NCBI RefSeq assembly: GCF_029023725.1
Contig: NZ_CP119075.1
Coordinates: 5,823,501 to 5,887,500, forward strand
Reading direction: 5' to 3'
Length of the DNA stretch: 64,000 bases
Source of the DNA: Synoicihabitans lomoniglobus
GTDB taxonomy: Bacteria; Verrucomicrobiota; Verrucomicrobiia; Opitutales; Opitutaceae
Shown here one piece after another: positions 15,203 to 61,594 of this stretch. Position numbers and translations under genes: made by a program. The notes below the pieces were generated by a model, which was not told where the DNA came from, made no database searches, and saw nothing but the letters and a program-made list of their open reading frames with translations. The first letter of the stretch is position 1; every line of letters begins with the position of its first letter.

Positions 15203-15976
15203 TTACTTCGCGGCGGTGAAGCCCTTGCCGGTGGCGGCCCAATAGATGCCACCGTAGACGTGGTGCAGGAAGCTGGCGTCGGAGTAGGTGGCGGGGAGGT
15301 GGCCGAAGGCGGTGTAGAAAATGCGACCGCCGTCGTATTCATGGCACCATGACATGGGATGGAAGTCGCCCATGCCCTTGCCTTGTTTGGCACCCCAGTT
15401 GGCGGCCGGAGCGTAGGTGGATTCGTCGACGGCCAGCAGGTAGTGCAGGCTGTCACTGCGGGCGGCGTCGAACTCATACCATTCCTCGGTGGCGAGGAAA
15501 CGCTTCGAGAAGCGGTCCATGCCGGGGAAGTTGTAATCGAGCACCTCGACGGTGGCGGTCTGCACGGCGGGGTGGATGTGGAACATATGGCCCATGCCCT
15601 TCGTCCACCAGTCCCAGTCGTATTCGGTGTCGGTGCCGCCGCTGTGCACGCCGGCGATGCCGCCACCGTTTTGCACGAAGCGCTCAACGGCGGCCTGTTG
15701 CTCGTCGTTGAGGATGTTGCCGGTGGAGAGCACGAAGACGATGACATCAACATCGGCCAGACCCTGGTCGGAGATCACGCCCAGGTTGTTGGGCCAAACG
15801 AGGGTAAAGTCGTGGAGTTTCGCCATTTCCTGCATGGCGGGCACGGCGGCGCTGATGGAGTCGTGATGCCAGCCATCGGTGTTGGTGATGAGCAGAGCCT
15901 TGAACTGGGCGGCGGAGGCGGAGACCACCATCGCGGCGAGGAGGGTAAATGCGGTGAGAAGGGAACGTTGTTTCAT
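15203..15976 (-). CDS. Secreted ThuA-domain protein
   Basis: A 257-residue exported protein. The chosen ATG at 15976 starts a signal peptide (MKQRSLLTAFTLLAAMVVSASAA). The mature part is one ThuA domain with a glutamine-amidotransferase-like fold: KALLITNTDGWHHDSI, VLSTGNILNDEQ, VQNGGGIAGVHSGGTDTE, GMGDFHPMSWCHEYDGGR and FYTAFGHLPATY. The family name comes from trehalose utilisation, but the chemistry of most members, including secreted forms in Verrucomicrobia and Planctomycetes, is not established. The gene is divergent from the GH9 genes across a short region holding a LacI-type operator candidate, which supports a role in carbohydrate use. Confidence 0.88.
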   Translation of the reverse strand: MKQRSLLTAFTLLAAMVVSASAAQFKALLITNTDGWHHDSISAAVPAMQEMAKLHDFTLVWPNNLGVISDQGLADVDVIVFVLSTGNILNDEQQAAVERFVQNGGGIAGVHSGGTDTEYDWDWWTKGMGHMFHIHPAVQTATVEVLDYNFPGMDRFSKRFLATEEWYEFDAARSDSLHYLLAVDESTYAPAANWGAKQGKGMGDFHPMSWCHEYDGGRIFYTAFGHLPATYSDASFLHHVYGGIYWAATGKGFTAAK

Positions 15977-16064: not shown

Positions 16065-16078
16065 TGCATTAAATTGCG
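16065..16078. promoter_or_regulatory. LacI-type operator candidate in the ThuA / GH9 intergenic region
   Basis: TGCATTAAATTGCG, one base from TGCA-N6-TGCA. It lies 22 bases before the GH9 ATG and 88 bases before the divergent ThuA ATG. The same motif stands upstream of the sugar genes at 48.5, 53.0 and 57.3 kb. Confidence 0.55.
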
Positions 16079-16100
16079 CTGAGTTGCACAAGATTTGGTC

Positions 16101-17798
16101 ATGCGACGATACCTCATTTTCGGCCTGCTGCTGGCCGGTGGCAGTGTGGCGGGGGCGGAAGGATGGGTGAGGTGGAACCAACAGGGTTACGCCCCTCATC
16201 AGCGCAAGGTGGCGTTGGTCATGAGTGATCAACCGCTGACGGGCCAAACTTGGTCGATCGCTGGTCGCACCCATGAGTTGGGTGAATCTGTGTTGGGGGC
16301 GGGGCCCAATTCCCCGTCGGCGTTTCACTACGCCGTCGATTTTTCCTTCGTGGAACAACCCGGCGTGCATGAGCTGAGGGTGGCGGACCTCGATGCGGTG
16401 GCAGTGGTGGTGAGCGAACGTCCCTACGCGGCGCTGGCGAATCTGCCGCTGCAACATTTGCGCATGGCGCGGTCGGGCACGGATACGGTTTTGTGGCGGC
16501 AAGCTTCGCATCCCGGCGATGCTGCCACGCCGCTATACGTGCCGGAGGGGAATCCGAGCAACGGCGCGTGGCGGGCGGCGGAATCGGGCCGTCGGGTCGA
16601 TGTGCGCGGAGGCTGGTATGATGCGGGCGACCATCTGAAGTTTACGCTGACCACGGCCTATACGGTTTATCACCTGTTGTTGGCGCACGAGATTGCCCCG
16701 ACAATTTTCACCAAGGTCCATAGCACAAGTGCATTGCCCGACATCCTCGATGAAGCGAAACACGGGCTCGATTATTTGCTGAAACTCTGGCCCGACGAAG
16801 ACACGTTCATTGTGCAAGTGGGGGATGCGCGGGACCACAACCTCGGGTGGCGGTTGCCGGCCGATGATGAACTGGACGGCACGCGACCCGCCATGGCGGC
16901 CCTGGCGCAGGTGCCCATGTTTTCCACGGTGGCGGCGTTGGCCAAAGGCGCCCGCACGCTGGCCGTATTCGACGAGGCCGCGGCGGATCGCTACGCCGCC
17001 GCAGCCGTGGCGCTGTTCGAGCGTGCCCGGCGATCGGATACGATCCTCACCGCGTTCGAGCGCGATGACGTGAACGACTTTTATCGGGATGACTCGGTGA
17101 ATGACCAGCGGGCGTTGGCGGCCCTGGAGTTGGCTGCGCTCACCGGCGAACCGCGTTACGAGGATGATGCGGTGGCGCACCGTCCGGGCCGGGCGGAACA
17201 GGTGGGGTGGGCCGACTGGCATTGGCTGGCCCACCGGAATCTGGCGCTCGCCGGAAACAAGTGGGGCGCTCCGGCGTGGTGGGCGGAGATCTTCCGCTAC
17301 CAGACCTATGCCCGAAGGCAGGGACAACCCTGGGGGCAGCCGACGCGTTACGTGTGGGGCAGCCTGACGCGGTGGATCGGGGCGGCGAACGCCGGGGAGG
17401 CGGCGGCGCAATTGGCGGGCAGCCATGCGGAGCGACCGGCGTTGTTTGACGACATGCTGGACTACGTTTTCGGGCGCAACCCGTGGGGAGCGTCGTTCCT
17501 GTTTGATGAGCGTCTGCCCAATACGTTGCGGCATCTCTACAGCCCGACGGCGAAGTTGTTGGAGCGGTTTCCAGTCGGGGCGTTTTCGGCAGGTCCGGCA
17601 GGGCGTCGCACGCATGAATCGATGCGACGCTATTTCGACGTGGCCCCGACCGATCCCTTCGAGCGTTTTAATACGACCACCATGGTGTTTTACGACAATG
17701 AGCATGACTTCGTTTGCCAGGAAGCGACGATCGGCGGACAAGCCGACATCGTCCTGATGTTGGCGCTGGCGGCGGCGCGAACGGAGGTCGATCGATGA
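16101..17798 (+). CDS. Glycoside hydrolase family 9, exported endoglucanase-type
   Basis: A 565-residue exported inverting glycosidase. The ATG at 16101 starts a signal peptide (MRRYLIFGLLLAGGSVAGAEG); the frame opens six bases earlier at a TTG. Residues about 22-110 form the Ig-like N-terminal domain common in GH9 (WVRWNQQGYAPHQRKVALV). The (alpha/alpha)6 catalytic domain has GGWYDAGDH at 170-178 with the catalytic-base Asp pair D174/D177, YVWGSLTRWIGAAN, and the C-terminal YDNEHDFVCQEA with acid E534. Family members cleave beta-1,4-glucans and related glycans. It overlaps the next GH9 gene by four bases. A LacI-type operator candidate lies just upstream. Confidence 0.92.
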   Translation: MRRYLIFGLLLAGGSVAGAEGWVRWNQQGYAPHQRKVALVMSDQPLTGQTWSIAGRTHELGESVLGAGPNSPSAFHYAVDFSFVEQPGVHELRVADLDAVAVVVSERPYAALANLPLQHLRMARSGTDTVLWRQASHPGDAATPLYVPEGNPSNGAWRAAESGRRVDVRGGWYDAGDHLKFTLTTAYTVYHLLLAHEIAPTIFTKVHSTSALPDILDEAKHGLDYLLKLWPDEDTFIVQVGDARDHNLGWRLPADDELDGTRPAMAALAQVPMFSTVAALAKGARTLAVFDEAAADRYAAAAVALFERARRSDTILTAFERDDVNDFYRDDSVNDQRALAALELAALTGEPRYEDDAVAHRPGRAEQVGWADWHWLAHRNLALAGNKWGAPAWWAEIFRYQTYARRQGQPWGQPTRYVWGSLTRWIGAANAGEAAAQLAGSHAERPALFDDMLDYVFGRNPWGASFLFDERLPNTLRHLYSPTAKLLERFPVGAFSAGPAGRRTHESMRRYFDVAPTDPFERFNTTTMVFYDNEHDFVCQEATIGGQADIVLMLALAAARTEVDR

Positions 17799-19471
17799 GA
17801 GTGCTGGGCAATCATCTCGGTTACGAACCCGAGGCCGTGAAAAGGTTGTGGATCGAAGCTTCGGCCGACACGGCGTGGAAGGCAGTGAGCTTGGTGAGGT
17901 TGCCGGAAGGCAAGGTCGTTTGGACGGGTCAACCCGTGCTGGTGGGCGGCGTGCCCGGCTGGAGCCTGGGACCGTGGTGGGAAGTGGATGTCTCCCGCAT
18001 CACGCAACTCGGTCGGTATGCCCTGCGGTGGGAGTGCGCGGACGGAGCGATCGGCCAAGGCGAAGGATTCGCCATTGAGCGGGGGCTATTCGGGGCGGCG
18101 CGCGTTTCGGATCTTTTGTTTCATATCAAGAGCCAGCGATCTTCGGGAGTCTGGGACGCGGCCGATGCGCGAGCGCCCCGGCTCGATGATCGTGAATCGC
18201 GGGATGTGAGTGGCGGCTGGTTCGATGCCTCGGGTGATAACAGCAAATACCTCAGCCATCTGTCGTATGCTCAGGTGATGAACCCGCAGCAGAATCCGTT
18301 GGTGGTCTGGGTGCTGGCGCGGTCATGGCAACGCTATCGCGATGCGGGGCGCGATGACTACTTCACGGAGCGCCTGCGCGATGAAGCGTTGCACGGGGCG
18401 GATTGGCTCATGCGCATGCAGGACGAGTCCGGTTTTTTCTACACCACCGTATTTGACCGGTGGTCGAAGGATCCGGCGCAGCGGGAATTGTGCAGTTACC
18501 GCACGCAGCAAGGGCACAAAGGGGCGGATTATCAGGCCGGCTGGCGCCAAGGCGGGGGCATGGCGATCGCGGCGCTGGCGGTGGCGTCGACCCTGGGCGG
18601 GGATGGCGCGTATTCGTCGGAGGACTACCGTGCGGCGGCGTTGCGCGGATTCCACCACTTGGTCGCACACGGTCGCGATTATCTCGAGGATGGGACGGAA
18701 AACCTCATCGATCATATCTGCGCGTTGCTGGCGGCGGCGGAATTGAGGGCCGTGGCGGCCGACGATGGAGCGGTGGCGTTTGAGCTGACGGTGCGTTGGC
18801 AAGCGGTGGTGGAGGCGCGTCGTGAAACGGAGGGTCACGTCTGGTTGGCGATGGATGCAGCGGGGGAGCGTTCCTGGTTCCACGCGAGTGACGCGGGTCT
18901 GCCGGTCGTGACGCTGCAGAGAGCGGCGGAGTTGCATCCCGCGCACTCCGCGGCGGATGAAGGAACGGCCTTGGCGCGGGAGTGGATGGTGTCGCAGGTG
19001 GGATTGGCCGAGGCGGATAACAATCCGTTTGGCTACCCGCCGCACTGGGTGCAAACGCCCGGTCGGCCCGGACAACCGCAGTGGTTTTATCCGCACGACA
19101 ATCCCTCCGGTTACTGGTGGCAGGGGGAAAACGCCAAACTCGCCTCGCTGGCGGCGGCGGCGACTGAGCTGGCCCCGGCAGCGTCACAGCGCTGGTTGGA
19201 TTGGATCATGGGCGCGAACCCGTTTGATGTGTGCATGATGCAGGGACACGGGCGGAACAATCCGGCTTACGAGGACGGTTCCTTCAATGCTCCCGGCGGT
19301 GTGTGCAACGGCATCACATCGGGCTTGGCGGATGAAGCCGACATCGCGTTTCAGCCGTTGCCGCACAACAACGATCCCGCCCAACGTTGGCGTTGGGGCG
19401 AACAATGGCTGCCCCATGCGGCGTGGTTGTTGTATGCTTGGGCATTGCGAGATACCGCGCCGACGACCTGA
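17795..19471 (+). CDS. Glycoside hydrolase family 9, cytoplasmic exo-glucosaminidase-like
   Basis: A 558-residue protein without a signal peptide. The ATG at 17795 overlaps the upstream stop (ATGA), so translation is probably coupled. It has the GH9 N-terminal Ig-like domain (MRVLGNHLGYEPEAVKRLW) and an (alpha/alpha)6 domain with GGWFDASGDNSKYLSHLSY at 140-158, carrying D144 and D148, and E514 in LADEADIAF. The DASGD-NSKYLSHL variant resembles GH9 exo-beta-D-glucosaminidase-like proteins of Vibrio and Photobacterium chitin operons (from memory of the family). NagB follows 12 bases later, which fits release of glucosamine inside the cell. A cellobiosidase-like role is the alternative. Confidence 0.82.
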   Translation: MRVLGNHLGYEPEAVKRLWIEASADTAWKAVSLVRLPEGKVVWTGQPVLVGGVPGWSLGPWWEVDVSRITQLGRYALRWECADGAIGQGEGFAIERGLFGAARVSDLLFHIKSQRSSGVWDAADARAPRLDDRESRDVSGGWFDASGDNSKYLSHLSYAQVMNPQQNPLVVWVLARSWQRYRDAGRDDYFTERLRDEALHGADWLMRMQDESGFFYTTVFDRWSKDPAQRELCSYRTQQGHKGADYQAGWRQGGGMAIAALAVASTLGGDGAYSSEDYRAAALRGFHHLVAHGRDYLEDGTENLIDHICALLAAAELRAVAADDGAVAFELTVRWQAVVEARRETEGHVWLAMDAAGERSWFHASDAGLPVVTLQRAAELHPAHSAADEGTALAREWMVSQVGLAEADNNPFGYPPHWVQTPGRPGQPQWFYPHDNPSGYWWQGENAKLASLAAAATELAPAASQRWLDWIMGANPFDVCMMQGHGRNNPAYEDGSFNAPGGVCNGITSGLADEADIAFQPLPHNNDPAQRWRWGEQWLPHAAWLLYAWALRDTAPTT

Positions 19472-48514: not shown

Positions 48515-48528
48515 TGCATAAAATTGCA
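48515..48528. promoter_or_regulatory. LacI-type operator candidate upstream of the TonB receptor (distal copy)
   Basis: TGCATAAAATTGCA, identical to the site in the glycosidase/LacI intergenic region at 53063. It is 85 bases before the receptor start. Confidence 0.7.
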
Positions 48529-48546
48529 TTGACGGAACCAGAGTAA

Positions 48547-48560
48547 TGCACATTTATGCA
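48547..48560. promoter_or_regulatory. LacI-type operator candidate upstream of the TonB receptor (proximal copy)
   Basis: TGCACATTTATGCA, again TGCA-N6-TGCA. Its start is 32 bases, about three helical turns, from the distal copy, so two dimers could bind on the same DNA face. Confidence 0.65.
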
Positions 48561-48612
48561 ACAAACGGCAACCCCGCAGGCCTGCGCCTCGCCGTTCAAC
48601 CCTGAAAACGCC

Positions 48613-51501
48613 ATGACTTATCCTGCCCTTCCTCGCCGCGCGTTTGCGTTGGCCAGTTTGTTATTCGTCCCGCTGCTATCTGCACAGGTGACCACGTCCG
48701 AAGCTGCCAACTCCGACGTCGAAGATGATGTGATCGAACTCAACCCGTTCACCGTAGACTCCACCTTAGACAAAGGTTATCGGGCCACCAACTCGATCTC
48801 CGGTTCGCGCATCAGCACGGCCATCAAGGAAATCCCGATGCCCATCGAGGTCATCACGGAGGACTTCCTCAAGGACGTGGGCGCGACCGATTTGCGCCAA
48901 AGCCTGCGTTACAGTGCGGGCGTCGTGCTGCAGTCGCAAAACACGCAGGGCGTGAACAGCTTTTATGGCCCGGGTGGGGTGAACAACCCCGAGAGTGTGA
49001 CGGCCGACAAGAACCAGACCACGATCAAACTGCGCGGCTACGTGACCGACGTCGTGCTGCGCGACGGTTTTCGGCGGCAGAGTGCCACTGACTCGATCAA
49101 CATCGGCCGTATCGAGGTCGTGCGGGGACCGGCGGCGTTGCTATACGGTATCGGAAACTTCGGTGGCATCGTAAACTACATGCCCAAGACGCCGTCCACG
49201 GAAGCGTCCACCGATCTTGCGGTGAGCGTTGGCACCGACGGTTTCCTGCGCGGCACGTTTGATACGACGGGACCTTTGGGCGAGCGCTGGGACGCGGCCT
49301 ACCGGGTTTCCGGTGCCGCCCAAAAGACCGGCAACTACACCGAGCTCTACGACGAGGATCACATTTTCGTGGCCCCGAGTTTCAGTTTCAAACCCACCGA
49401 GAAAACCGACGTGTTGGTGGATCTTGAATACGGCGAGCAAACTGAGACCGGCGTGGGTTTCCTCAGCGTGCGCGCCCGTTCCGACATCAACGGTGTCGAC
49501 CAGGCCGACCGTTTGCAGAGTTCCGGCTTTGTGCAGTTTGCGGGCAAGGATCCCCGCACGTTCCGTTGGTCCGGCCCCGATACCTATCGCGAGACCGAGC
49601 AATACAATGTGCGCTTCCAGGTGTCGCAGGAAATTTTTGAGAATCTCAATCTGCTCGCCGGTTACAACACGTCCCAGGTCATCTACAACGGCCGCGATGT
49701 AAACGGCGCCATGGAGCAAAACATCGGCCCGGTGGCGCTGCGCGACACCATCCGCGTCGTGCCGATCGACTCGGCCAACGGCAGCAGCGAGTTCATCGAA
49801 ACCGAGACGCCCAACACGATCTTCAAATACAATTGGGCCGACAACTACGAGCAGGCTCAGCGCGAGCAGGCCCGGGTGGAACTGAACTACCAGTTCGATA
49901 TTCTCGAAGACAGTAAATGGCTCGGTATCGACAGCAGTCTGCTCGTCGGCCGCTCCTACGAAAAGGCCGAGAAACTCACCCGCCTCACGCGCACCCGCGA
50001 CACGTTCTTCAACTACAAGAACCCGACCGACACGTCCTACATCCGCTTCGGCACCCAAGGTGACGGCACCGCCGATGTCGACATGGTGCGCATCAACCAC
50101 ATCGATTCCACGGGTCGCAACACCGGCGACTATGCCGTGTATCAGGGCAAGCTGCTCGACAATCGACTCTCCATCGTCGCCGGCATGCGTCGCGACCGTA
50201 ACGACTTCGGGGTCGAGCAGGACACGTTCTATCCGACCATGGACAGCACATCTTCGCGTCGTCCGGTGCAAAAGGAGGACACCTCTCAGTTCGGCGCGAC
50301 TTTCCGCCTCCTGCCGCAGGTCAGTATCTACGGTCTCAAGTCCGAAGGTCTGCAGCCCAACTTCGACGGTTTGCGCGATGCCTCCGGCGATCCGCTCGGC
50401 CCCGTCAGCGCCCGCAGCGAAGAGATCGGCCTCAAGGTCGACTTCATGGACGGCAAGATTTCCGGCACCATCAGCAGCTTTAAGATCGAGCGCAAAGGTG
50501 TGCCGTTCGGCCAATGGTGGATGCCCACGCTCAAGGGCAACTTCGATACCAGCCGTCCCATCATTTACAACGTCGGCAACTTCAGTCCGGCGTCCGCGCC
50601 CGGCGGCTCCAACGGTGGCAACGGAGCGGCTGACGCTGCCATCGCCGAATGGAATGCCGGCGTGAGTTCCGGGGCGATTTATCAGCACGACGAAGGCGGC
50701 ACCACCAGCTGGTATGTGAACGCCTCCGAGGCCACTGGTGCGGCTTACCTCGACCAGGTGTTCAACCTCACCAAGACGACCATGCCGGGCTGGGCCGGTT
50801 GGCTCTACACCGAGGACGGCCACACCAACAACAGCTTCAACGACATCGGCAACGCCGACGGTTGGCAGGCCTACGTCCAGCAGGAAGACGAGTCGAAGGG
50901 CTGGGATGCCCAGATCCTCTTCACCCCGACGGACAACTTCCAGTTCCTCGTGTCCTACGCGCACGTCGAACGCGAGATCACCAACCCCGGTCGCTTCGTC
51001 GATTACCCCGTGCCCGACAATCGCTGGGCCGTCTGGTATTTCCCCGATGGCAACTGGGGTCTCACCGGCTACTCGCTCGATGAAGTCTACACCGACCCGA
51101 CGCGCACGTCCACCTGGACCGGCATCGGCTGGGGTGCGGGCGAATCACGCGATGACACGCCCGATCACGCCATCAGCAGCTGGGCCAACTACTCCTTCAA
51201 TGACGGACCGCTCGCCGGACTCTCCATCGGTCTCGGTGGCCAATGGGAATCCGAGCGCGAATACTTCTCCGGCATCACGGTGGCCGGGCAAAAGCAGACC
51301 GACGGCAACGGCGACCTCATTGTGCTCAAGCACAAGTCCCGGCTGAACCTCGACCTCATGGCCCGCTACGAATTCTCGCTGCGTGATCACGACGCCTACG
51401 TGCAGCTCAACATCAACAACCTCCTCAACGACGAAGATCTCTACGGTCTCATCTACGCGCCCGGCATGTCCGGTCGCATGGAGTTTGGCTATCGTTTCTA
51501 A
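48613..51501 (+). CDS. TonB-dependent receptor
   Basis: A 962-residue outer-membrane receptor. The ATG at 48613 begins a signal peptide (MTYPALPRRAFALASLLFVPLLSA); another in-frame ATG at 48556 lies inside the operator. A short N-terminal stretch (VIELNPFTVDSTLDKGY) precedes the plug (SISGSRISTAIKEIPMPIEVITEDFL, DLRQSLRYSAGV, IKLRGYVTDVVLRDGF, RIEVVRGPAALLYG). The 22-stranded barrel ends LNINNLLNDED...GRMEFGYRF. The plug type recalls siderophore-type receptors, but the LacI-type operators, glycosidase, symporter and regulator nearby favour uptake of an oligosaccharide. It has its own terminator. Confidence 0.95.
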   Translation: MTYPALPRRAFALASLLFVPLLSAQVTTSEAANSDVEDDVIELNPFTVDSTLDKGYRATNSISGSRISTAIKEIPMPIEVITEDFLKDVGATDLRQSLRYSAGVVLQSQNTQGVNSFYGPGGVNNPESVTADKNQTTIKLRGYVTDVVLRDGFRRQSATDSINIGRIEVVRGPAALLYGIGNFGGIVNYMPKTPSTEASTDLAVSVGTDGFLRGTFDTTGPLGERWDAAYRVSGAAQKTGNYTELYDEDHIFVAPSFSFKPTEKTDVLVDLEYGEQTETGVGFLSVRARSDINGVDQADRLQSSGFVQFAGKDPRTFRWSGPDTYRETEQYNVRFQVSQEIFENLNLLAGYNTSQVIYNGRDVNGAMEQNIGPVALRDTIRVVPIDSANGSSEFIETETPNTIFKYNWADNYEQAQREQARVELNYQFDILEDSKWLGIDSSLLVGRSYEKAEKLTRLTRTRDTFFNYKNPTDTSYIRFGTQGDGTADVDMVRINHIDSTGRNTGDYAVYQGKLLDNRLSIVAGMRRDRNDFGVEQDTFYPTMDSTSSRRPVQKEDTSQFGATFRLLPQVSIYGLKSEGLQPNFDGLRDASGDPLGPVSARSEEIGLKVDFMDGKISGTISSFKIERKGVPFGQWWMPTLKGNFDTSRPIIYNVGNFSPASAPGGSNGGNGAADAAIAEWNAGVSSGAIYQHDEGGTTSWYVNASEATGAAYLDQVFNLTKTTMPGWAGWLYTEDGHTNNSFNDIGNADGWQAYVQQEDESKGWDAQILFTPTDNFQFLVSYAHVEREITNPGRFVDYPVPDNRWAVWYFPDGNWGLTGYSLDEVYTDPTRTSTWTGIGWGAGESRDDTPDHAISSWANYSFNDGPLAGLSIGLGGQWESEREYFSGITVAGQKQTDGNGDLIVLKHKSRLNLDLMARYEFSLRDHDAYVQLNINNLLNDEDLYGLIYAPGMSGRMEFGYRF

Positions 51502-51532
51502 GCGGACTAAGCGCTTCATTGCATAGGTGTTC

Positions 51533-51565
51533 AACGCCCGCCCGGTTCGCCGGAGCGGGCGTTTT
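51533..51565 (+). terminator. Rho-independent terminator of the TonB receptor gene
   Basis: Outer stem AACGCCCGC / GCGGGCGTT with an inner CCGG-TTCG-CCGG stem-loop and one bulged A, ending in TTTT. It lies 31 bases after the stop. Confidence 0.85.
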
Positions 51566-51702
51566 ACGTTGAAAGGCGCCGTCGCCGCCACACCTACGGC
51601 GCGACGACGCGTGAAGGGACGGAGCGTCCGCCAGCAGGTCGGCTGCGTGGAGATGCGGACCCGGGTCCGAAGGCGGGAAAACGGGAACGGCTGCGCCCGC
51701 CG

Positions 51703-51726
51703 GTAGGCCGCGAGCTCGCTCGCGCT
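51703..51726. repeat. Solitary REP element
   Basis: One 24-base copy in the same form as the right halves of the paired REP units at 54.3-55.9 kb (begins GTAGGCCGCGAGC, ends CGCGCT). It lies 12 bases beyond the stop of the glycosidase gene. Confidence 0.75.
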
Positions 51727-51737
51727 CTCCGCCCCAC

Positions 51738-53018
51738 CTACTCGACCTTGAACGGGAAGTTTCCCGCCGCGCCGCCGCCGTGGCCGTCGCGCACGTAGAG
51801 GAATACTCGATACGCGCCGGGCTCCGCCGGCAGCCGCAAATCGACCGTGGCTCCGTTTTGCTTCACCACGCAGCCGGCAATGACGGGAGGTCGTTCCTCC
51901 GGATCGCCCCCAAACTTGCGATCATGCGTTTCGGCCACGACCTGCCAGTCAAATTGCAACTCCGCTCCGGCCGGAGCGGTCACGTCGGCCGTCACCGTGT
52001 GCTGGGATCCGACCGCGATGGTTTTTTCCCGAAAGTCCGCCTGTAAGCCATGAATGACCGGACTGGGGTGGATGGGTTCAACGCCGGTCCAGGATCGGAC
52101 CATCGCGTCGATCGACGGCGTCTTCTCTCCGCTGGGCAGAAACATGCTGAACCACGTGGCGGTGGTCTCCTGTTTCTGTCCCCATAAAAAGCAGAACGTC
52201 CCGAGACACAGCTGGCGTTTCGCGGCGATCATAGCCCGATGGGCGTTGGCGTAAGTCGCGGCTTTTTCGGCCGAGGTGGGCTCGATCGGTGCGCCCCAGG
52301 ACGTGGTCTCAATCTCCCAGTGGCCGACCGGCCCGAATTCCGTGATCAGGTAAGGACGCTCCCAACCTTGGGCGGCCAAGGCGTCGTCCACGCCTTCGGC
52401 TCCACCGTAAATATTGATGCCGAGTAAATCCATCGCGGAGTAATGGGGCATCATGGCCCGCACCTTGTCGTTGTAGGTGCCGGCGAGAATGGTGCACACC
52501 GGATGGTCCGGGTCCGCCGCTTTGACGAGGCGGGCGAGCACCTCGAGTTCGCGCCAGATGCGCGGATCGCTGCCGTCCTCCTCCATCTCATTGCCGAGGC
52601 CCCACATGAGCACGGCCGCATGATCTTTGTAACGCCGCACCGTCGTGAGGATGCGTTCGCGTTGGCGTTGCAAGGCCGCCTCGTCGCCGTAGTCAAAACC
52701 ATGACGGGGATGATCGACCCACAATCCCACCAGCACGCACAAGCCGAGACGGGCGGCGCGATCGAGCAGCGGTTCGCCGGATGCGTCCGGACCGAGTTGT
52801 TCCACGCCCCAGGTGCGGATCGTATTGCCGCCCGACTCGCGCAACACCTCGAGTTGCTCGTAACCGCCGGCCCCGCGAATCACATAGGGCTCGCCATTGC
52901 GTCGCAGCTGCCAGGTGCCGTCGGAAGCCTGTTCCAGTGTCACGCGGGCCGGGTCGGCCGAGAGCGATAATGGCAGGGAGGCCAAGCCCAGTGCGCAACC
53001 AAGTCCCAATCGATTCAT
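51738..53018 (-). CDS. Exported clan GH-A glycosidase (GH2 TIM-barrel-like)
   Basis: A 426-residue exported retaining glycosidase. The ATG at 53018 starts a signal peptide (MNRLGLGCALGLASLPLSLSA); the frame runs upstream through the intergenic region but that part has no protein character. The TIM barrel has NEPYVIRGAGGYE-like strand 1, GGNTIRTWG, E144 in WGLGNEME as acid/base and E227 in LITEFGP as nucleophile. A C-terminal beta domain follows (about 330-426; AYRVFLYVRDGHG). It lacks the N-terminal sandwich domains of full GH2 enzymes. Substrate unknown, probably a beta-linked glycan. It is divergent from the LacI gene and shares the operator at 53063. Confidence 0.85.
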   Translation of the reverse strand: MNRLGLGCALGLASLPLSLSADPARVTLEQASDGTWQLRRNGEPYVIRGAGGYEQLEVLRESGGNTIRTWGVEQLGPDASGEPLLDRAARLGLCVLVGLWVDHPRHGFDYGDEAALQRQRERILTTVRRYKDHAAVLMWGLGNEMEEDGSDPRIWRELEVLARLVKAADPDHPVCTILAGTYNDKVRAMMPHYSAMDLLGINIYGGAEGVDDALAAQGWERPYLITEFGPVGHWEIETTSWGAPIEPTSAEKAATYANAHRAMIAAKRQLCLGTFCFLWGQKQETTATWFSMFLPSGEKTPSIDAMVRSWTGVEPIHPSPVIHGLQADFREKTIAVGSQHTVTADVTAPAGAELQFDWQVVAETHDRKFGGDPEERPPVIAGCVVKQNGATVDLRLPAEPGAYRVFLYVRDGHGGGAAGNFPFKVE

Positions 53019-53062
53019 GGCTGATGAAAAGACGGTGGGGCAGAGGGAGCAAGTGCAATAGA

Positions 53063-53076
53063 TGCATAAAATTGCA
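53063..53076. promoter_or_regulatory. LacI-type operator candidate in the glycosidase / LacI intergenic region
   Basis: TGCATAAAATTGCA, identical to the site at 48515. More TGCA half-sites at 53054-53057 and 53085-53088 flank it at odd spacings. It lies 45 bases upstream of the glycosidase start and 109 bases upstream of the LacI start. Confidence 0.7.
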
Positions 53077-53184
53077 TAAAAGATTGCATTGAGATACCTA
53101 CGACTTACGCGTTGAGCTGTAAGGTGAAGCCCGTTTCGTTGAGCCGACCGGCTCGTTTTTGTTTCACTGTATTCGTTTCTCCCC

Positions 53185-54246
53185 ATGGCCAAGATCAACC
53201 AGCAGTATATCGCCAAGGAACTTCAGATCTCGCGGGCGACGGTTTCACGCTGTTTCACGAACCACCCCGGCATTAATCCCAAGACTCGGGCCAAGGTCTT
53301 CGCGCTGGCTTCGCGCATGGGTTATGCGCATACGGAGAAGCGCACTCCCGCGGTGCACCAGCGCACGCGCCGGGCGTTGGCTTTCGGGGTGCTGGTGTGT
53401 GTGGATCTGCCCAATTTTGATCGCACCGGATACGGCAATCCCGGGCAGGAGTTGCTCAATGGACTCTCCGAGGTGGCGCGGGTGCAAGGCGTGCGACTCG
53501 ACCTACATTTTGTGCGACCCGAGGACCTGCACATCGACGGCCCGTCCTATGAAGAAATCGTGTCGGACGGTCGTCGCCTCTGGGACGGCGTGGTCCTCAT
53601 TTATCCGTTCCCGCAGAGTGTGGTCGACGAGTTAAAGGCCACGTTTCCGGTGGTGTCGTTGGTCGAGCAATACGGCCGCACGCCGCTGGACTGCGTCGAT
53701 GTGGATCACCACCGGGGCATCGAGCGCCTGGTCGAGCATCTGCACTCGCAAGGCCATCGCCGCATTGGGTTTTTTACGTGGCGCTACCCGGTCGAAGCGA
53801 CCTGGGCGCTACGCCGGTATGGTGCGTTTGTGGAGATGATGACCGCGCGGGGATTGGAGATTGATCCGCAGGACGCGATTAATGTCAGCCCGCGCGACTC
53901 CCTGGCGTTGCCCGACGCGCACGCGCGGGTGCGGGAGCGCACTGCCCAAGGCGTGACGGCGTGGATTTGCGCAGCGGATCACCAGGCCTTTGATCTTATG
54001 CTCGATCTCAAAGCGGCGGGACTGCGCGTGCCGACCGACGTCTCCATTGTGGGATTCGACGGACTGCAACCTCCGCAAGGAGCCGACAAACTCACCACGA
54101 TTGAAATCCCCTTTCACCAGATCGGGGTGACCGGCGGGAAACGCCTACTGGATTTGATCAACAAGCGTTTCGATTCCGAGCAACACATCCTCCTCAACTG
54201 CGACCTCCGCGACGGCGACACCGTGGCCGCCCCGGCCAAAGCGTAA
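53185..54246 (+). CDS. LacI-family transcriptional regulator, likely regulator of the TGCA-N6-TGCA regulon
   Basis: A 353-residue cytoplasmic DNA-binding regulator. The N-terminal helix-turn-helix is YIAKELQISRATVSRCFTNH with KTRAKVFALASRMGY. The sugar-binding domain contains DLPNFDRTGYGNPGQELLNGL, VDVDHHRGIERLVEHLHSQGHRRIGF, ICAADHQAFDLML and PTDVSIVGFDGL. It is divergent from the glycosidase, with a perfect operator candidate between them, so autoregulation is likely. Its last 30 codons recur in diverged form at 54351. A REP unit begins six bases after its stop codon. Confidence 0.93.
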   Translation: MAKINQQYIAKELQISRATVSRCFTNHPGINPKTRAKVFALASRMGYAHTEKRTPAVHQRTRRALAFGVLVCVDLPNFDRTGYGNPGQELLNGLSEVARVQGVRLDLHFVRPEDLHIDGPSYEEIVSDGRRLWDGVVLIYPFPQSVVDELKATFPVVSLVEQYGRTPLDCVDVDHHRGIERLVEHLHSQGHRRIGFFTWRYPVEATWALRRYGAFVEMMTARGLEIDPQDAINVSPRDSLALPDAHARVRERTAQGVTAWICAADHQAFDLMLDLKAAGLRVPTDVSIVGFDGLQPPQGADKLTTIEIPFHQIGVTGGKRLLDLINKRFDSEQHILLNCDLRDGDTVAAPAKA

Positions 54247-54252
54247 GGCGAA

Positions 54253-54352
54253 AGCGCGAGCAAGCTCGCAGCCTACCGAAACGCCCCGGCGCGCTGCCGA
54301 CACACCTGATTCGTTCACACCACCCACCGTAGGCCGCGAGCTCGCTCGCGCT
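54253..54352. repeat. Paired inverted REP unit 1
   Basis: Left half 54253-54276 (begins AGCGCGAGCAAGC) and right half 54329-54352 (ends CTCGCTCGCGCT) are inverted relative to each other, with a 52-base spacer containing CGCCCCGGCGCGC. Units of this layout are called BIMEs when associated with RAYT transposases. Confidence 0.85.
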
Positions 54353-54443
54353 GGTCAACAAGCGCTTCGATTCCGAGCAGCACGTCCTCATCAACTGCGA
54401 TCTCCGCGACGATGACTCCGTGGCGGCACCGGCCAAAGCGTAA
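54351..54443 (+). pseudogene. Captured 3' end of a second LacI-type regulator gene
   Basis: Thirty codons and a TAA, in the frame starting at CTG 54351, encode LVNKRFDSEQHVLINCDLRD followed by DDSVAAPAKA. This matches the end of the LacI gene at 53185 (IQ replaced by conservative changes: I/V, L/I, G/D, T/S). No upstream part of the gene is present. Most differences are synonymous or conservative, so the fragment probably derives from a functional paralogue rather than from decay of a local copy. It lies between REP units 1 and 2. Confidence 0.8.
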
Positions 54444-54449
54444 GGTGAA

Positions 54450-54550
54450 AGCGCGAGCAAGCTCGCGGCCTACGAAAACGCCCCGACGCGCTTGCCGGCA
54501 CGCCTGATTCGTTCACACCACCCACCGTAGGCCGCGAGCTCGCTCGCGCT
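54450..54550. repeat. Paired inverted REP unit 2
   Basis: Halves at 54450-54473 and 54527-54550 with a 53-base spacer. The unit begins six bases after the captured LacI stop, just as unit 1 begins six bases after the true LacI stop. Confidence 0.85.
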
Positions 54551-54556
54551 TTTCCG

Positions 54557-55093
54557 TCACCCTCCGGAGGTTTGTCCGCGATCAAGCCAATGGGGTCGCA
54601 CGGATGAGTCGTCGGCCGGGGGCCATGCAAACCATGTCGTTTCTTCCGGGCCGATCCACACCTGCGGGTAGTCTTTGGCGGCAGCGACGAGTCTGCCCCG
54701 GACGGGATTTGTGACCAGATAGGTCAGCGCCGCGGAGATGTGATCAGCGGGCCTCAGGCGGTGATCGAAGTAGTTGGATTGCCATGACAGACCGGCCGCG
54801 GCGAGCTCGCGGCGGGTTTTGGATTTAAGTCGGGCGACCGTGCGGGAGAGCGAGAGCGATCCGGTGATGGTCGCGAGTAGATGCAGGTGATCGGGCATGA
54901 TGACGGCACCGCGAACGTGCCAATGACGATCGTGTTCGATGGCTCCGGTTTCGGCGCGGATTGATGCGGCGATGGTCGGTGTGTTCAGGCCCCGGTTGCG
55001 GTGGTTGGTGCAGAGCGTCAGGAAGTAGGTCGCGCCGGAAATCGAGACTCGTTTTCGCCGCAAAGCTCCGTCTCCTCGCCCCGGCGTATGCAT
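54557..55093 (-). CDS. REP-associated tyrosine transposase (RAYT), copy 1
   Basis: A 178-residue Y1-type (IS200-like) transposase domain protein that would nick and mobilise REP hairpins. The ATG at 55093 (MHTPGRGDGALRRKRVSISGATYFLTL) is chosen because translation further upstream runs through a REP. The HUH motif is MPDHLHLL with H69 and H71; the catalytic Tyr is probably Y125 in LTYLVTNPVRG. Other family features are NYFDHRLRP and the C-terminal WFAWPPAD. It is flanked by REP units on both sides. About 91% identical to copy 2. Confidence 0.9.
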   Translation of the reverse strand: MHTPGRGDGALRRKRVSISGATYFLTLCTNHRNRGLNTPTIAASIRAETGAIEHDRHWHVRGAVIMPDHLHLLATITGSLSLSRTVARLKSKTRRELAAAGLSWQSNYFDHRLRPADHISAALTYLVTNPVRGRLVAAAKDYPQVWIGPEETTWFAWPPADDSSVRPHWLDRGQTSGG

Positions 55094-55117
55094 AACGAGA
55101 CGGTGCGGCAGGGCGAA

Positions 55118-55224
55118 AGCGCGAGCAAGCTCGCAGCCTACAAAACGCCCCGGCGCGCATGCCGGCACACCTGCGTCTTTCACACCGCCCACCACCCACC
55201 GTAGGCCGCGAGCTTGCTCGCGCT
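55118..55224. repeat. Paired inverted REP unit 3, between the two RAYT genes
   Basis: Halves at 55118-55141 and 55201-55224 with a 59-base spacer. The right half has T in place of C in CGAGCTTGCTCG. It lies just upstream of RAYT copy 1. Confidence 0.85.
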
Positions 55225-55245
55225 CTTCCGCTACCCTCCGGAGGT

Positions 55246-55767
55246 TTATCCGCGGTCAAGCCAATGGGGTCGCGCGAGCGCGTCATCGGCCGGGGGCCAT
55301 GCAAACCATGTCGTTTCTTCCGGGCCGATCCACACGTGCGGATAGTCTTTGGTGGCAGCGACGAGTCCGCCCCGGACAGGATTCATGACCAGGTAGGAAA
55401 GCGCCGCGGAGACGTGATCATCGGGCCTCAGGCGGTGATCAAAGTAGTTGGATTTCCACGACAGACCGGCGGCGGCGAGCTCGCAGCGGGTTTTGGATTT
55501 GAGTCGGGCGACGGTGCGGGAGAGCGAGCGTGACCCCGTGATAACCGCGAGTAGATGCAGGTGATCGGGCATGATGACGGCACCGCGAACGTGCCAATGA
55601 CGATCGTGTTCGATGGCTCCGGTTTCGGCGCGGATTGATGCGGCGATGGTCGGTGTGTTCAGGCCCCGGTTGCGGTGGTTGGTGCAGAGCGTCAGGAAGT
55701 AGGTCGCGCCGGAAATCGAGACTCGGTTTCGCCGCAAAGCTCCGGCACCTCGCCCCGGCGTATGCAT
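55246..55767 (-). CDS. REP-associated tyrosine transposase (RAYT), copy 2
   Basis: A 173-residue paralogue of copy 1 in the same orientation. The ATG at 55767 (MHTPGRGAGALRRNRVSISGATYF) matches copy 1. HUH motif H69/H71, probable catalytic Y125 in LSYLVMNPVRG. It ends at WLDRG and lacks the short QTSGG tail of copy 1. Two of about sixteen substitutions lie before residue 75; the rest are in the C-terminal half. Both copies look intact. Confidence 0.9.
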   Translation of the reverse strand: MHTPGRGAGALRRNRVSISGATYFLTLCTNHRNRGLNTPTIAASIRAETGAIEHDRHWHVRGAVIMPDHLHLLAVITGSRSLSRTVARLKSKTRCELAAAGLSWKSNYFDHRLRPDDHVSAALSYLVMNPVRGGLVAATKDYPHVWIGPEETTWFAWPPADDALARPHWLDRG

Positions 55768-55791
55768 AACGAGACGGTGCGGCAGGGCGAA

Positions 55792-55890
55792 AGCGCGAGC
55801 AAGCTCGCAGCCTACCGAAACGCCCCGGCGCGCTGCCGACACACCTGCGTCGTTCACCCACCCGCCGTAGGCCGCGAGCTCGCTCGCGCT
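55792..55890. repeat. Paired inverted REP unit 4
   Basis: Halves at 55792-55815 and 55867-55890 with a 51-base spacer. It lies just upstream of RAYT copy 2 and six bases from the stop of the symporter gene. Confidence 0.85.
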
Positions 55891-55896
55891 CTCCGG

Positions 55897-57279
55897 TCAG
55901 GTGGACTCCGCCGTGGCCAGGTCTTGTTCCATTTGGGCGACGTCGCTTTCGCGCAGGGGGTAGAACCAGATGGCGATCACGCCGCCGATGGCGAATGCCG
56001 CGGGTAGGATCGTGAAGAGGAGGCGCACGCCGAGGAGGCTGCTTTCGGTCTGAATATCATTGGCCACAAAGCCGTAGTAGGCGAGCACGATGCCAGGCAC
56101 GCCGCCGCCGATGGTAAGCCCCATTTTCTGGGCAAACTGGGCGGACGAGAACACCAGGGCGGTGGAGCGATGTCCCAGTTTCCACATGCCGTAATCCGCG
56201 GCGTCGGCAAACATGGCCCAGACCAACGCGGGCGTGGGGCCGATGATGAACGTGCCCAGAATATTCACCACCAACATGAGCACCGTGGCCTCCGGCGGGA
56301 TGAAGAAGAACGACGCCATCGCCAGGGCATTGGCGGCGGAGAGCCAGATCATCAACGACCGCTTGCCCGCGAAACGGGTGAACAGGGGCGTGCACGCCAC
56401 GCCGGCAATGAGTGCGAGTGTGCCACTGGTCATGAACACGGTGGTGAGGTCGAAAACGCCGAACCACGGCGTGCCGTCATCGCCGACGTAGTATTTGAAA
56501 TAGTGGACCGTGACCGCGCCGCGAATGGCGACGTTGGCCAGGGTGAGCACACCGGCGATGGACAGGATGACCCAAGGTCGATTGCGCACGAGCAATCCGA
56601 GTTCCTTGCGCAGGTCCGGCTTCTGACTGGGCGGAGGCTGCACGCGCTCGCGGGTGGTGAGAAAGGTGAAGACGAACAGTCCCACCGCAACCACCGCAAA
56701 GATCGCCATGGTGGCTTGGAAGCCCGCCGCCTCGTTGCCCTCGCCGAACTTGGCGATCAACGGTCGGGCCGCCGCCACGATGAGAAATTGCCCGGCAAAC
56801 GCGCACACAAATCGGAAGGTCGAAAGCGAGGTGCGCTCCTGCGATGACGGCGTAATCACCCCGAGCATCGCAGAGTAGGGGATGTTGATCGCGGTGTAGA
56901 CCAGCATCATGAGGATGTAGGTGATGTAGGCGTAGATGAGTTTGCCGGACGCGCTCAGGTCGGGGTTGGCAAACAACAGATAGCCCGCGATGCCGAAGGG
57001 CACCGCCATCCACAGCAAGTAGGGGCGATATTTACCCCAGCGCGTTTGCGTGCGATCGGCCAGCGCTCCCATGAGCGGATCGCTCACCGCATCGAAAAAA
57101 CGAGCGACGATAAACAGCGTGCCGGCGGCGCCGGCGGCCAAACCAAATACGTCCGTGTAGTAGTAAAACAGGAAGACGTTGATGGTGTGAAAAACGAAAT
57201 TCGACGCCGTATCGCCGAGGCCGTAGCCAAATTTTTCACGAAACGACAGAGGGGCCGGGGTGGGGGCGGAAACGGACAT
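55897..57279 (-). CDS. GPH-type (glycoside-pentoside-hexuronide) cation symporter
   Basis: A 460-residue inner-membrane transporter of the major facilitator superfamily with 12 predicted spans. Typical GPH features: FREKFGYGLGDTASNFVF at the N-terminus, VARFFDAVSDPLMGALADRTQTRWGKYRPYLLW (loop 2-3, conserved D-P and G-x-x-R-P), INIPYSAMLGVITPSSQERTSL and FADAADYGMWKLGHRSTALVFS. The members import sugars or glycosides with H+ or Na+. An operator candidate lies 82 bases upstream. It is probably the inner-membrane partner of the TonB receptor at 48613. Confidence 0.93.
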   Translation of the reverse strand: MSVSAPTPAPLSFREKFGYGLGDTASNFVFHTINVFLFYYYTDVFGLAAGAAGTLFIVARFFDAVSDPLMGALADRTQTRWGKYRPYLLWMAVPFGIAGYLLFANPDLSASGKLIYAYITYILMMLVYTAINIPYSAMLGVITPSSQERTSLSTFRFVCAFAGQFLIVAAARPLIAKFGEGNEAAGFQATMAIFAVVAVGLFVFTFLTTRERVQPPPSQKPDLRKELGLLVRNRPWVILSIAGVLTLANVAIRGAVTVHYFKYYVGDDGTPWFGVFDLTTVFMTSGTLALIAGVACTPLFTRFAGKRSLMIWLSAANALAMASFFFIPPEATVLMLVVNILGTFIIGPTPALVWAMFADAADYGMWKLGHRSTALVFSSAQFAQKMGLTIGGGVPGIVLAYYGFVANDIQTESSLLGVRLLFTILPAAFAIGGVIAIWFYPLRESDVAQMEQDLATAEST

Positions 57280-57360
57280 GGGGCGAAGATCGAACGACGA
57301 TGCGGGGTGGGGCGGAGTGTCCGGAAGCTGGGGAGGCGGGGAGGCGAGTGCAAATTCAAT

Positions 57361-57374
57361 TGCATTAAATTACA
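57361..57374. promoter_or_regulatory. LacI-type operator candidate upstream of the symporter
   Basis: TGCATTAAATTACA, one mismatch from TGCA-N6-TGCA. An additional TGCA half-site is at 57349-57352. Confidence 0.55.
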
Positions 57375-57520: not shown

Positions 57521-58297
57521 TTACGGGATGATTTGAGCGAGGCCGGCATCGGCCAGTCGCTGCCGCAATTCGGCCACGCAACGCCGACTGGCGGCGATCT
57601 CGGGCAATGGCGGTTGGAACGCGAAGCGCACGTCTTCGCCTTCGCCGCGCACGATCGCACGCACATGTTGCAGGTTGATCAACGACTGACGATGCACTCG
57701 GGCGAAGATCGAGGCGGGCAATGTGTTTTCCCAGGACTTGAGCGTGCGCAGGGTGAGGTGCTGGGAGCCGTCGGCCAACTGGATCTCGGTGTAGTTTTCA
57801 CAACTGCGGATCGAGACGATGGCGCGGATTTCAATAAAGCGGGTGGTGTGGCCGGTTTTAACGAAGATGCGGTCTTCGACGGTGAATGGCGGGGCGTTTT
57901 CGCGGTCCGACTCCGGTCCCCTCCCGGCCGGGGCGGTCGGCTCGGCGGGGTCGAGCCGATACAGGCTCGCGGAGAGACGTTCGGCGGTCACGGGTTTGAG
58001 GAGATAGTCGAGGGCATTGACGTCGAAGGCGCGGACCGCGTAGCGATCGAAGGCGGTCACGAAGATCACCCGGGCGTGGGGAGGAATGTGTTCGAGCAGG
58101 TCGAAGCCGGTGCCGCCGCGCAGTTGAATGTCCAGAAAGACGAGATCGTAGTCCGTGGCCGCCAGGCGTTCGCGCGCCTCGTTGAGGGTGCCGGCCTCTC
58201 CGACAATGGTGATGTCCGCATGCGCTTGCAGCAGGCGGCGCAGTTCGATTCGCGCGAGTGGTTCGTCGTCAATGAGCAAGGCGTGGCGGGAAGGCAT
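57521..58297 (-). CDS. LytTR-family response regulator
   Basis: A 258-residue cytoplasmic regulator. Receiver domain with acidic pair D10/D11, phosphoacceptor D56 (VFLDIQLRGG), T81 (FVTAFDRYA) and K101 (DYLLKPV). After a linker, residues about 145-255 form a LytTR DNA-binding domain (DRIFVKTGHTTRFIEIRAIVSI, VHRQSLINLQHV). It lies 44 bases downstream of the sensor kinase gene, so the two form a two-component pair. Targets may include the symporter operon next to it (inference). Confidence 0.93.
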   Translation of the reverse strand: MPSRHALLIDDEPLARIELRRLLQAHADITIVGEAGTLNEARERLAATDYDLVFLDIQLRGGTGFDLLEHIPPHARVIFVTAFDRYAVRAFDVNALDYLLKPVTAERLSASLYRLDPAEPTAPAGRGPESDRENAPPFTVEDRIFVKTGHTTRFIEIRAIVSIRSCENYTEIQLADGSQHLTLRTLKSWENTLPASIFARVHRQSLINLQHVRAIVRGEGEDVRFAFQPPLPEIAASRRCVAELRQRLADAGLAQIIP

Positions 58298-58341
58298 GAG
58301 GAAGTGAAAATGTAAAAAAGGTGGAGACGGAAATCTGACGA

Positions 58342-61300: not shown

Positions 61301-61506
61301 ACCCCGTCGGGACCGCGTTTGGCCGTCCAAACTTGATTGTGTCCGCCGTAGTCGCGCGGGCTGAAGCTGCGCATGGCGGGGAAGCCGCGTTCCTCCAATC
61401 GCGGTGGCGATGCGACGGGACCGTCCTGGGCGAACCCCAACCCTACGCCGGCACACAATCCGCCGAGCAACAACCAAGAGCGGGGGACGAGAAGCGGGGC
61501 ACGCAT
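58342..61506 (-). CDS. LytS-type sensor histidine kinase with periplasmic two-component-regulator propeller
   Basis: A 1054-residue inner-membrane sensor. The ATG at 61506 gives the signal peptide MRAPLLVPRSWLLLGGLCAG. Residues about 40-690 are Reg_prop/ligand-sensing propeller repeats (GVNEFGYLKP, GTLWIGSSNQGVWRL), followed by a Y_Y_Y-type beta-sandwich (about 690-765; TFTNLPPGDYVFEARGRT), one transmembrane helix (about 775-797), a coiled-coil and the His_kinase domain with H864 in LNPHFLFNSLNSIR and ATPase motif LLPLLENAIKYG. It would sense a periplasmic glycan-like ligand, as in hybrid two-component systems of Bacteroidetes, though kinase and regulator are separate here. Confidence 0.92.
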   Translation of the reverse strand: MRAPLLVPRSWLLLGGLCAGVGLGFAQDGPVASPPRLEERGFPAMRSFSPRDYGGHNQVWTAKRGPDGVMYFGCRGQVLAFDGIAWRNIPVPGGVHIRAMDIDSAGTVWLGGVNEFGYLKPSATGELKFESLRPHLPADITQTGDFRRAYAMPDGVYFQTDAYLFRWHDGVLKVWPMHERFVTLMMPWQGRLVVCRSDGWMMPNEDGTWDPVPGQPDPARQILLSGLVPNGRDAWWAAAGRKGLLRFDGQTTSEVPGDVAAFIKRSRLFGIARLADGRLLLPTLGNGLLITDAELRPLLHLNADNGLPSDTVICVEPVGNGIVWCGTEQGIVRLDLSPGITRFSPANGLDHNGTESVIRLADEPVFATSNGAMQMQPGEGPFANPAFRPWAEIDDNLNDFLPLADGVLAGGVRSLWWVRDGEVFDLQSPSNIDDILIPRLLPHRAVALHLTGIAWWRRDGASWILDHNVEAPRGEFDSLCEDANGTLWIGSSNQGVWRLDYGPLATTIAADATLPDPVPVHYTAAHGLPSTTDRTLVEIIDGAPLFFTSYGLYRHDAATDRFVPEPAFGPRFVDGTWCTHHAAPSPTGGVWFDVKGAIGSADESFHQIGRWMDGTWHPLQLADLDRIGSVRELVCEMVDGEEVLWICGESALIRINVTARQLHPGAQVGATVLHSLTTTSGRTLASGGHIAESLDIAPEHNSVRFRFGTPGLSGEHDGYHVSQLIGFSGGELEANPTGERTFTNLPPGDYVFEARGRTADHHWSTPARLAFTVLAPWWLTPAAKVAYGLVALGSVYLIVRWRTLRLEAQRTQLEQVVAARTAELANKAAALERLHALEHDATLAARLSAETARLELLRYQLNPHFLFNSLNSIRALVYSAPETAGEMVTKLAEFCRRTLNRSNDEMVSVADEVAMARNYLDIEQVRWQDGLQIHLEVSPAAAACELPQNLLLPLLENAIKYGGRTSPDQLEVKLSIVLENDVLTCAVANTGAWVEPDENPFTDSTRIGLANLRQRLRRHYGDDARMTHATTAGWVIITVMLPRCHRDPSPPPTA

Positions 61507-61594
61507 GACAGTCAGGCAAAGCCAAAGCGTCGCATGGGGCCAGCCCACGAAACGTTTGCGGCGGTAGGAGAACGATAAAGCGGAGCGACGGAGA

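Follow-up and report, generated by a model that had tools for sequence, protein, structure and literature searches.

The LacI-family protein encoded at 53185-54246 quite probably binds the sites described here as its operators. Judging from their sequence, these appear to consist of head-to-tail repeats through which the protein would repress a beta-1,3-glucan regulon until an inducer arrives. They lie in a window of 64,000 nucleotides, the whole stretch of DNA that was analysed (genome positions 5823501-5887500; the genome comprises 5,926,369 bases in one contig). A preliminary description of this DNA had listed five sites of the pattern TGCA-N6-TGCA. All five are present, and in the gene context given for them: before a TonB receptor, in the gap between a glycosidase gene and lacI, before a GPH symporter and in the gap between ThuA and GH9 genes. 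The features discussed below are the following:

15203..15976, minus strand: ThuA-domain protein (PF06283)
16065..16088, plus strand: weaker ThuA/GH9 site, TTGCATTAAA-TTGCGCTGAG-TTGCAC
16101..17798, plus strand: GH9 glycoside hydrolase a (PF00759)
17714..19471, plus strand: GH9 glycoside hydrolase b (PF00759), start uncertain
48515..48528, plus strand: predicted operator 1 of the receptor promoter, GTGCATAAAATTGCAT with flanks, followed by a -35-like TTGACG hexamer
48547..48560, minus strand: predicted operator 2 of the receptor promoter, 32 bp beyond operator 1, minus-strand sequence TTGCATAAATGTGCAT
48613..51501, plus strand: TonB-dependent outer-membrane receptor (PF07715), start corrected from 48556
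51738..53018, minus strand: GH158-type glycoside hydrolase (beta-1,3-glucanase family; phmmer to PDB)
53063..53088, plus strand: predicted lacI/GH158 intergenic operator, TGCA at 53063, 53073 (N6) and 53085 (N8) in a single orientation
53185..54246, plus strand: LacI-family regulator, the proposed binder, without a recognisable hinge helix
55897..57279, minus strand: GPH (MFS_2) sugar:cation symporter (PF13347; TIGR00792 above cut-off)
57349..57374, plus strand: predicted symporter operator, TGCA-N8-TGCA-N6-TACA, given as 57361 in the preliminary description

Occurrence of the sites in the window and the genome

Exact TGCA-N6-TGCA occurs in the window at 48515, 48547 and 53063 (three places against 0.88 expected; 3 of 100 shuffles reach three), and the sites at 16065 and 57361 are one-mismatch forms. 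As a class, one-mismatch forms show no excess over chance in the window, with 16 seen and 21.6 expected. Across the genome, the bare pattern is found at 31 exact places, 28 of them outside the window. Of these 28 we examined 15; each is covered by an open frame of at least 215 residues and is thus probably inside a gene, although long chance frames are common in G+C-rich DNA. When the surroundings of three outside-window sites were compared with the window proteins, no match was found. Thus, plain TGCA-N6-TGCA proves little and is not diagnostic alone.

The genome-wide scan proposed in the preliminary description therefore has a divided outcome: the bare pattern fails as a marker, whereas matches to the shared core TTGCATTAAATTGCAT with up to two mismatches are confined to the window (four in 5.93 Mb, at 16065, 48515, 53063 and 57361). 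With up to three mismatches, the core has five matches in the window against 0.18 expected (reached in 0 of 100 shuffles). In the entire genome this threshold gives nine matches, including those five, against eight for the reversed control, which is near chance. Since the consensus was built from the window sites themselves, the independent evidence is conservation in relatives.

Conservation among relatives

A search of 57 genomes for LacI homologs (E up to 1e-20) was positive in 20, the window's own included. Of the seven other genomes in the genus, six are among these 20, and the remaining one, G006, has a completeness of 69%. Exact TGCA-N6-TGCA is present in all seven lacI promoters of the genus (window included). 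We also inspected the upstream regions (at most 300 bp) of 28 other homologs, each either from outside the genus or a second, distant copy inside it (17 from the related-loci search and 11 from the LacI homolog search; some, such as L089-L091, are closely related to each other). The exact site occurs in 15 of these 28 regions against 0.154 expected from shuffles, and every alternative spacer from 0 to 15 in at most one. The set of 28 leaves out L087 and L088 (duplicates of the genus loci L042 and L043), L095 and L106 (5′-truncated gene), L023/L045 (same record as L097) and the distant L033, L035, L036 and L038.

The 13 homologs without an exact site in the upstream region are L047, L049, L053, L054, L055 (the second copy, in G002), L058, L097 (whose upstream region has only 213 bp), L099, L101, L102, L103, L104 and L107. 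Four of the 13 are VSR(S/A)L proteins, and for four others (L047, L049, L099 and L101) an exact site lies in another part of the locus. Sites with an AT-rich centre occur in 27 of the 57 genomes, some of which have no LacI match (seven sites in G051 and four in G044, for example).

Within the genus, the receptor, lacI and symporter promoters keep the site blocks amid diverged DNA. The block GATGCATAAAATTGCAT-(A/T/G)AAAAAT-TGCATTGAG is nearly unchanged in all seven lacI promoters, and both the N6 and the N8 spacing are found in all seven (window included in each count). In the receptor promoter, blocks like GTGCATAAAATTGCATTGAC and TGCACATCTATGCAAC are kept in six of six aligned genomes (the window and five relatives), the centre base of the operator 1 block being changed in one of them. 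The spacing of 32 between the two operators is likewise common to the window and the five relatives. These operators bracket the TTGACG element, and a pattern search in the window and G005 found them oppositely oriented. The longest reading frame of the receptor begins at 48556, inside the second site; the start is likely the ATG at 48613, after which an apparent signal peptide follows (judged by eye). The NCBIfam matches of the receptor are siderophore-receptor-like, every one under its cut-off.

The symporter site is found at the equivalent place in six of six aligned relatives, exact in five and with one mismatch (TGTA) in G002. Blocks like TGCAATTTTATGCAATT are kept in seven of seven aligned symporter promoters, the first TGCA being TGTA in the window and in G002. 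The symporter sites point away from the gene.

The site at 16065 is a weaker case. It is present, as the preliminary description had it, but it is not conserved: the gap between GH9a and ThuA in G001, G003 and G007 holds no exact or near-consensus site, and G002, G004, G005 and G006 gave no GH9a match at the threshold used. In G001, G003, G004, G005 and G007 the ThuA gene lies directly beside the symporter gene, with the site between them, and in G001, G003 and G007 GH9a adjoins ThuA. In the window, the ThuA-GH9 group is about 41 kb from the symporter. This separation, set against the arrangement in the relatives, explains most of the impression of a "distributed" regulon, a term that overstated the case. 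A span of 9 kb holds four of the five sites; the remaining one, about 32 kb off, stands beside genes that belong to the same cluster in relatives.

It can be added that a near-perfect site, GTGCATTAAATTGCAT, lies at L080:4780 in G046 amid genes that by eye look like sulfatases and not glucanases. PSCyt/PSD1 (DUF1549/DUF1553) and DUF1501 genes were seen near the receptor operator or lacI at L043:503-5678, L075:301-1824 and L094:4755-9425.

Orientation of the half-sites

As TGCA is its own reverse complement, direct and inverted repeats of it look alike, and the flanks decide between them. We compared the flanks in 57 exact sites judged linked to regulon loci. Under direct symmetry they agree at 2.54 of 6 positions against a null of 2.04 (sd 0.15), and under inverted symmetry at 1.28 against 2.12 (sd 0.18), which is below chance. 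The oriented consensus of the 57 sites is (G/T)TGCA-TAAAAT-TGCA-T, and a central CG occurs in none of them. Among 25 distant sites, both the direct excess (0.0024 of null values at or above) and the inverted deficit (0.0002) hold. The inverted deficit persists (0.007) in a reduced set of 13 sites from the genus, where the direct excess becomes marginal (0.053). These sequences are related, so the p-values overstate independence. Other exact sites of the same loci were excluded from the 57, for example L047:19045, L049:2025 and 3793, L052:12094, L071:362, L074:4986, L075:16, L092:7959 and 8358, L103:15974 and those in L078-L084.

A cleaner test of orientation comes from pattern counts in eight whole genomes of the genus, since these need no choice of sites. 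KTGCAY-W4-KTGCAY occurs at 16 places, against one for the reversed control. The inverted forms were found at one place (inward; G004:C78, also among the 16) and two places (outward), whereas strand counting alone would give direct, inward and outward forms in the ratio 2:1:1.

Additionally, several sites contain a third half-site, in some cases imperfect, which sits poorly with a single palindrome. The lacI operator has three half-sites at 10 and 12 bp; the symporter operator likewise has three, spaced 12 and 10 bp and ending in TACA; and the site at 16065 has three at an exact 10-bp period, the central one imperfect. Taken together, the half-sites are probably (G/T)TGCA(T/C) units arranged head to tail with a 10-bp period, and the earlier reading of TGCA-N6-TGCA as a palindrome, with which the flanks disagree, was probably wrong. 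The palindromic operator with a central CG, characteristic of the LacI family though not universal in it, was not found. In sequence, the sites fit the CytR type, that is direct-repeat TTGCAT half-sites with variable spacing.

The regulator

The protein encoded at 53185-54246 has a LacI-type helix-turn-helix (PF00356, 26.7 bits and so slightly short of the cut-off of 27) with the recognition helix TVSRCF, and a periplasmic-binding-protein-like effector domain (PF13377, E 2.9e-24). Its AlphaFold model has a mean pLDDT of 85.4 and N-terminal helices at 6-13, 17-24 and 32-45, and a fold search with the model returned CcpA, PurR and LacI among the first matches.

The stretch after the helix-turn-helix reads MGY-AHTEKRTPAVHQRTRRALA-FGV and lacks the conserved Ala and Leu of the hinge helix, a pair that is characteristic of the LacI family but not universal. 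Counting from the conserved GY, in what we take to be the register of the canonical hinge, an Ala followed three positions later by a hydrophobic residue occurs in 0 of 39 regulators, and A..L within the next 14 residues likewise in 0 of 39. The model shows no helix at 46-65, with pLDDT below 50 at 50-61, although AlphaFold may miss a hinge helix that is induced by DNA. The 39 regulators include the four distant proteins L033, L035, L036 and L038, and L037 represents the same gene as L055.

Presence of the site follows the recognition helix. Of the regulators with a VSR(C/S)F helix, 22 of 31 have a site upstream of their own gene, against none of eight with VSR(S/A)L (Fisher 0.0004; the sequences are not independent). 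That the site tracks lacI across genera, and this helix within the family, supports the suggestion that the LacI protein at 53185 is the likely binder.

GTGCAC was seen upstream in five of the eight VSR(S/A)L cases (L033, L037, L038, L054 and L107), as if the same half-site were used in another layout. It also occurs upstream of five of the 31 VSR(C/S)F regulators, in three of them within the N6 site.

Genes adjoining the sites and the glycan

The product of 51738..53018 is GH158-type by near full-length homology: phmmer aligned residues 31-426 of 426 with PDB 9oro, which is named GH158 (E 1.9e-95). It also matched 6pal, listed as an uncharacterized protein (E 8.3e-65). Members of GH158 act on beta-1,3-glucan, and GH30 enzymes debranch laminarin, as described in PMC7157763.

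There are 22 AT-centre sites in the genus, 10 of them outside the lacI locus. Three of the 10 adjoin GH16 laminarinase-type genes, one of whose products matches the laminarinase 3iln (E 3.2e-84); in G001 the GH16-linked site and the beginning of the longest reading frame overlap. One each adjoins a GH55-like protein (E 1.9e-11 to the beta-1,3-glucanase 5m5z), a GH72-like protein and a receptor ortholog. The other four showed no tie to a glucan enzyme or receptor or lie at contig ends, one of which reads like the end of the contig with the receptor ortholog. Outside the genus, the place of GH158, divergent from lacI, is taken by GH30 in L093, where the site and the start of the longest GH30 frame overlap, and by GH16 in L094.

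In the window's own genome we found no GH16 members and, in a search that had no positive control, no GH55-like members. The PDB relatives of GH9a are endoglucanases, a xyloglucanase and others, and the GH9 and ThuA genes alone are no pointer to beta-1,3-glucan. The sites nevertheless look like marks of a beta-1,3-glucan (laminarin-type) regulon, with the enzyme activities suggested by homology; mixed-linkage glucan is a possible alternative substrate. The preliminary description had proposed that the genes serve the uptake and degradation of a single glycan under common control. This idea gains support, and through GH158, GH16, GH55-like, GH72-like and GH30 proteins the glycan can now be named as beta-1,3-glucan.

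Proposed mechanism and alternatives

We propose that each operator consists of (G/T)TGCA(T/C) repeated head to tail at one DNA turn (10 bp) with an AT-rich spacer. In the absence of inducer, a LacI dimer would sit on the receptor, lacI/GH158 and symporter promoters and block transcription. At the receptor promoter it would do so through two opposed operators 32 bp (three turns) apart around the -35-like TTGACG. GH158 would free a beta-1,3-glucan oligosaccharide, the receptor and the symporter would import it, and the repressor would presumably be released. The dimer might grip a direct repeat through a flexible linker. Binding, the inducer, this grip and the direction of control are what we infer; repression rather than activation seems most likely, because the operators bracket TTGACG at the receptor promoter and sit in the region shared by lacI and GH158.

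A less radical reading, which we consider unlikely, is that of an ordinary LacI operator: a dimer in the usual LacI geometry would recognise TGCA-N6-TGCA by inverted symmetry, and DNA shape alone would account for the asymmetry of the AT-rich centre. LacI-family motifs are described as palindromes (PMC4052901), TGCA itself is palindromic so that the core fits either arrangement, and in several relatives the outer flanks of the symporter site are symmetric, (A)TTGCA..TGCAAT. However, inverted flank symmetry is under chance, inverted forms occupy one and two places against 16 direct ones in the eight genomes, and a central CG is absent from all 57 sites. A single palindrome would also leave the third half-sites (N8 or N6) of the lacI, symporter and GH9 sites unexplained.

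Direct repeats could also be read by another regulator, for example an AraC-type protein with its two helix-turn-helix motifs, the LacI protein being a passenger. A 10-bp head-to-tail spacing is AraC-like, and LacI served as bait for most of the loci. Yet no AraC domain was detected in the 27 proteins (7 + 10 + 10) scanned from eight site-bearing loci, and the site stays within the lacI promoter across genera despite different neighbours and follows the LacI recognition helix; we regard this explanation as very improbable. Still harder to credit is that the cluster is controlled through these sites by the gene pair at 57521-61686, a LytTR response regulator with a Y_Y_Y-type sensor kinase. The pair adjoins the symporter site, and LytTR proteins are binders of direct repeats, but neither gene has a match of at least 80 bits in 18 neighbourhoods of relatives or in 21 related loci. 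Equally implausible is that TAAAAT and TTGCAT are core promoter parts and the pattern incidental. TAAAAT does resemble the -10 hexamer consensus, and bare TGCA-N6-TGCA occurs at 31 genomic places; against this stand the spacer-specific enrichment upstream of lacI homologs and the restriction of matches with up to two mismatches to the window. We rejected TAAAAT as a -10 element, as the symporter sites face the wrong way. Chance was rejected on the TTGCATTAAATTGCAT counts, the spacer enrichment and the conserved blocks; the one-mismatch count alone would not reject it.

Comparison with known systems

Returning to head-to-tail operators of the LacI protein, this mode of recognition is, to our knowledge, otherwise known only from CytR, a LacI-family regulator of enterobacteria and vibrios, which is the nearest known parallel for the window operators. 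According to PMC3454398, the CytR half-site is an octamer, GTTGCATT, that contains TTGCAT and occurs at variable spacing, and direct-repeat operators are conserved at cytR and cdd. Like the window sites, CytR operators thus have TTGCAT-type half-sites, variable spacing and, in part, direct repeats. They differ in period, which is 9 bp in the direct repeats of CytR (1-bp spacer) and 10 bp in the window-type sites. Furthermore, CytR acts together with CRP on nucleoside genes, whereas the window regulon probably concerns beta-1,3-glucan. CytR is the second-best NCBIfam match of the window regulator, but a score of 75.5 bits against a cut-off of 436 (NF008269) speaks against orthology.

With the classical LacI, GalR, PurR and CcpA repressors the window regulator shares the N-terminal helix-turn-helix and sugar-binding core, as well as a site in its own promoter and a local sugar regulon. 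In contrast, those repressors usually have the hinge Ala/Leu and the central CG, and the window branch is without both. In PMC4052901, operators of LacI-family factors are palindromes, 1173 of 1251 even ones have a central CG pair, and exceptions to the CG are listed. PMC2978694 reports that the hinge Leu inserts into the central CG, that exceptions are rare and that the hinge position is Leu in 82%. A literature search for the hinge helix paired with the central CpG found no paper.

The beta-1,3-glucan locus 1,3GUL of Bacteroides uniformis, as described in PMC7157763, uses GH158, GH16_3 and a TonB-dependent transporter for laminarin, and the window shares GH158 and the TonB receptor with it. 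The regulator of the Bacteroides locus is a hybrid two-component one, and SusD-like surface proteins are part of that locus, whereas the window has LacI and a GPH symporter.

We put at about even the chance that this Verrucomicrobiota branch of LacI proteins has lost the hinge helix together with the palindromic central-CG operator, reads two or three head-to-tail TTGCAT-type half-sites one turn apart, and runs laminarin use. Laminarin is a major algal storage sugar, and the control of its use in Verrucomicrobiota seems little described. A literature search on Verrucomicrobia, laminarin and LacI returned papers, PMC12915301 included, none of which concerns control of laminarin use as far as titles and the beginnings of abstracts indicate; further searches brought up no paper on LacI operators of Verrucomicrobia. 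The conserved operator would allow beta-1,3-glucan genes to be recognised in these genomes, and the paired absence of the hinge signature and the palindromic CG-centred operator offers a natural test of DNA recognition by LacI proteins.

Other features of the window

The LytTR regulator and Reg_prop/Y_Y_Y sensor kinase (57521-61686) beside the symporter operator might form a second, lineage-particular layer of control. Between lacI and the symporter gene (54246-55897) lie two tandem Y1/IS200-like transposase frames of the REP-associated type, with REP-like GCGAGCAAGCTCGC repeats recognised by eye, and a partial copy of the lacI 3′ end was noticed in the same way near 54345-54446. Finally, the region 39023-42469 encodes a rhamnogalacturonan lyase family 11 protein, which is a separate, pectin-degrading function.
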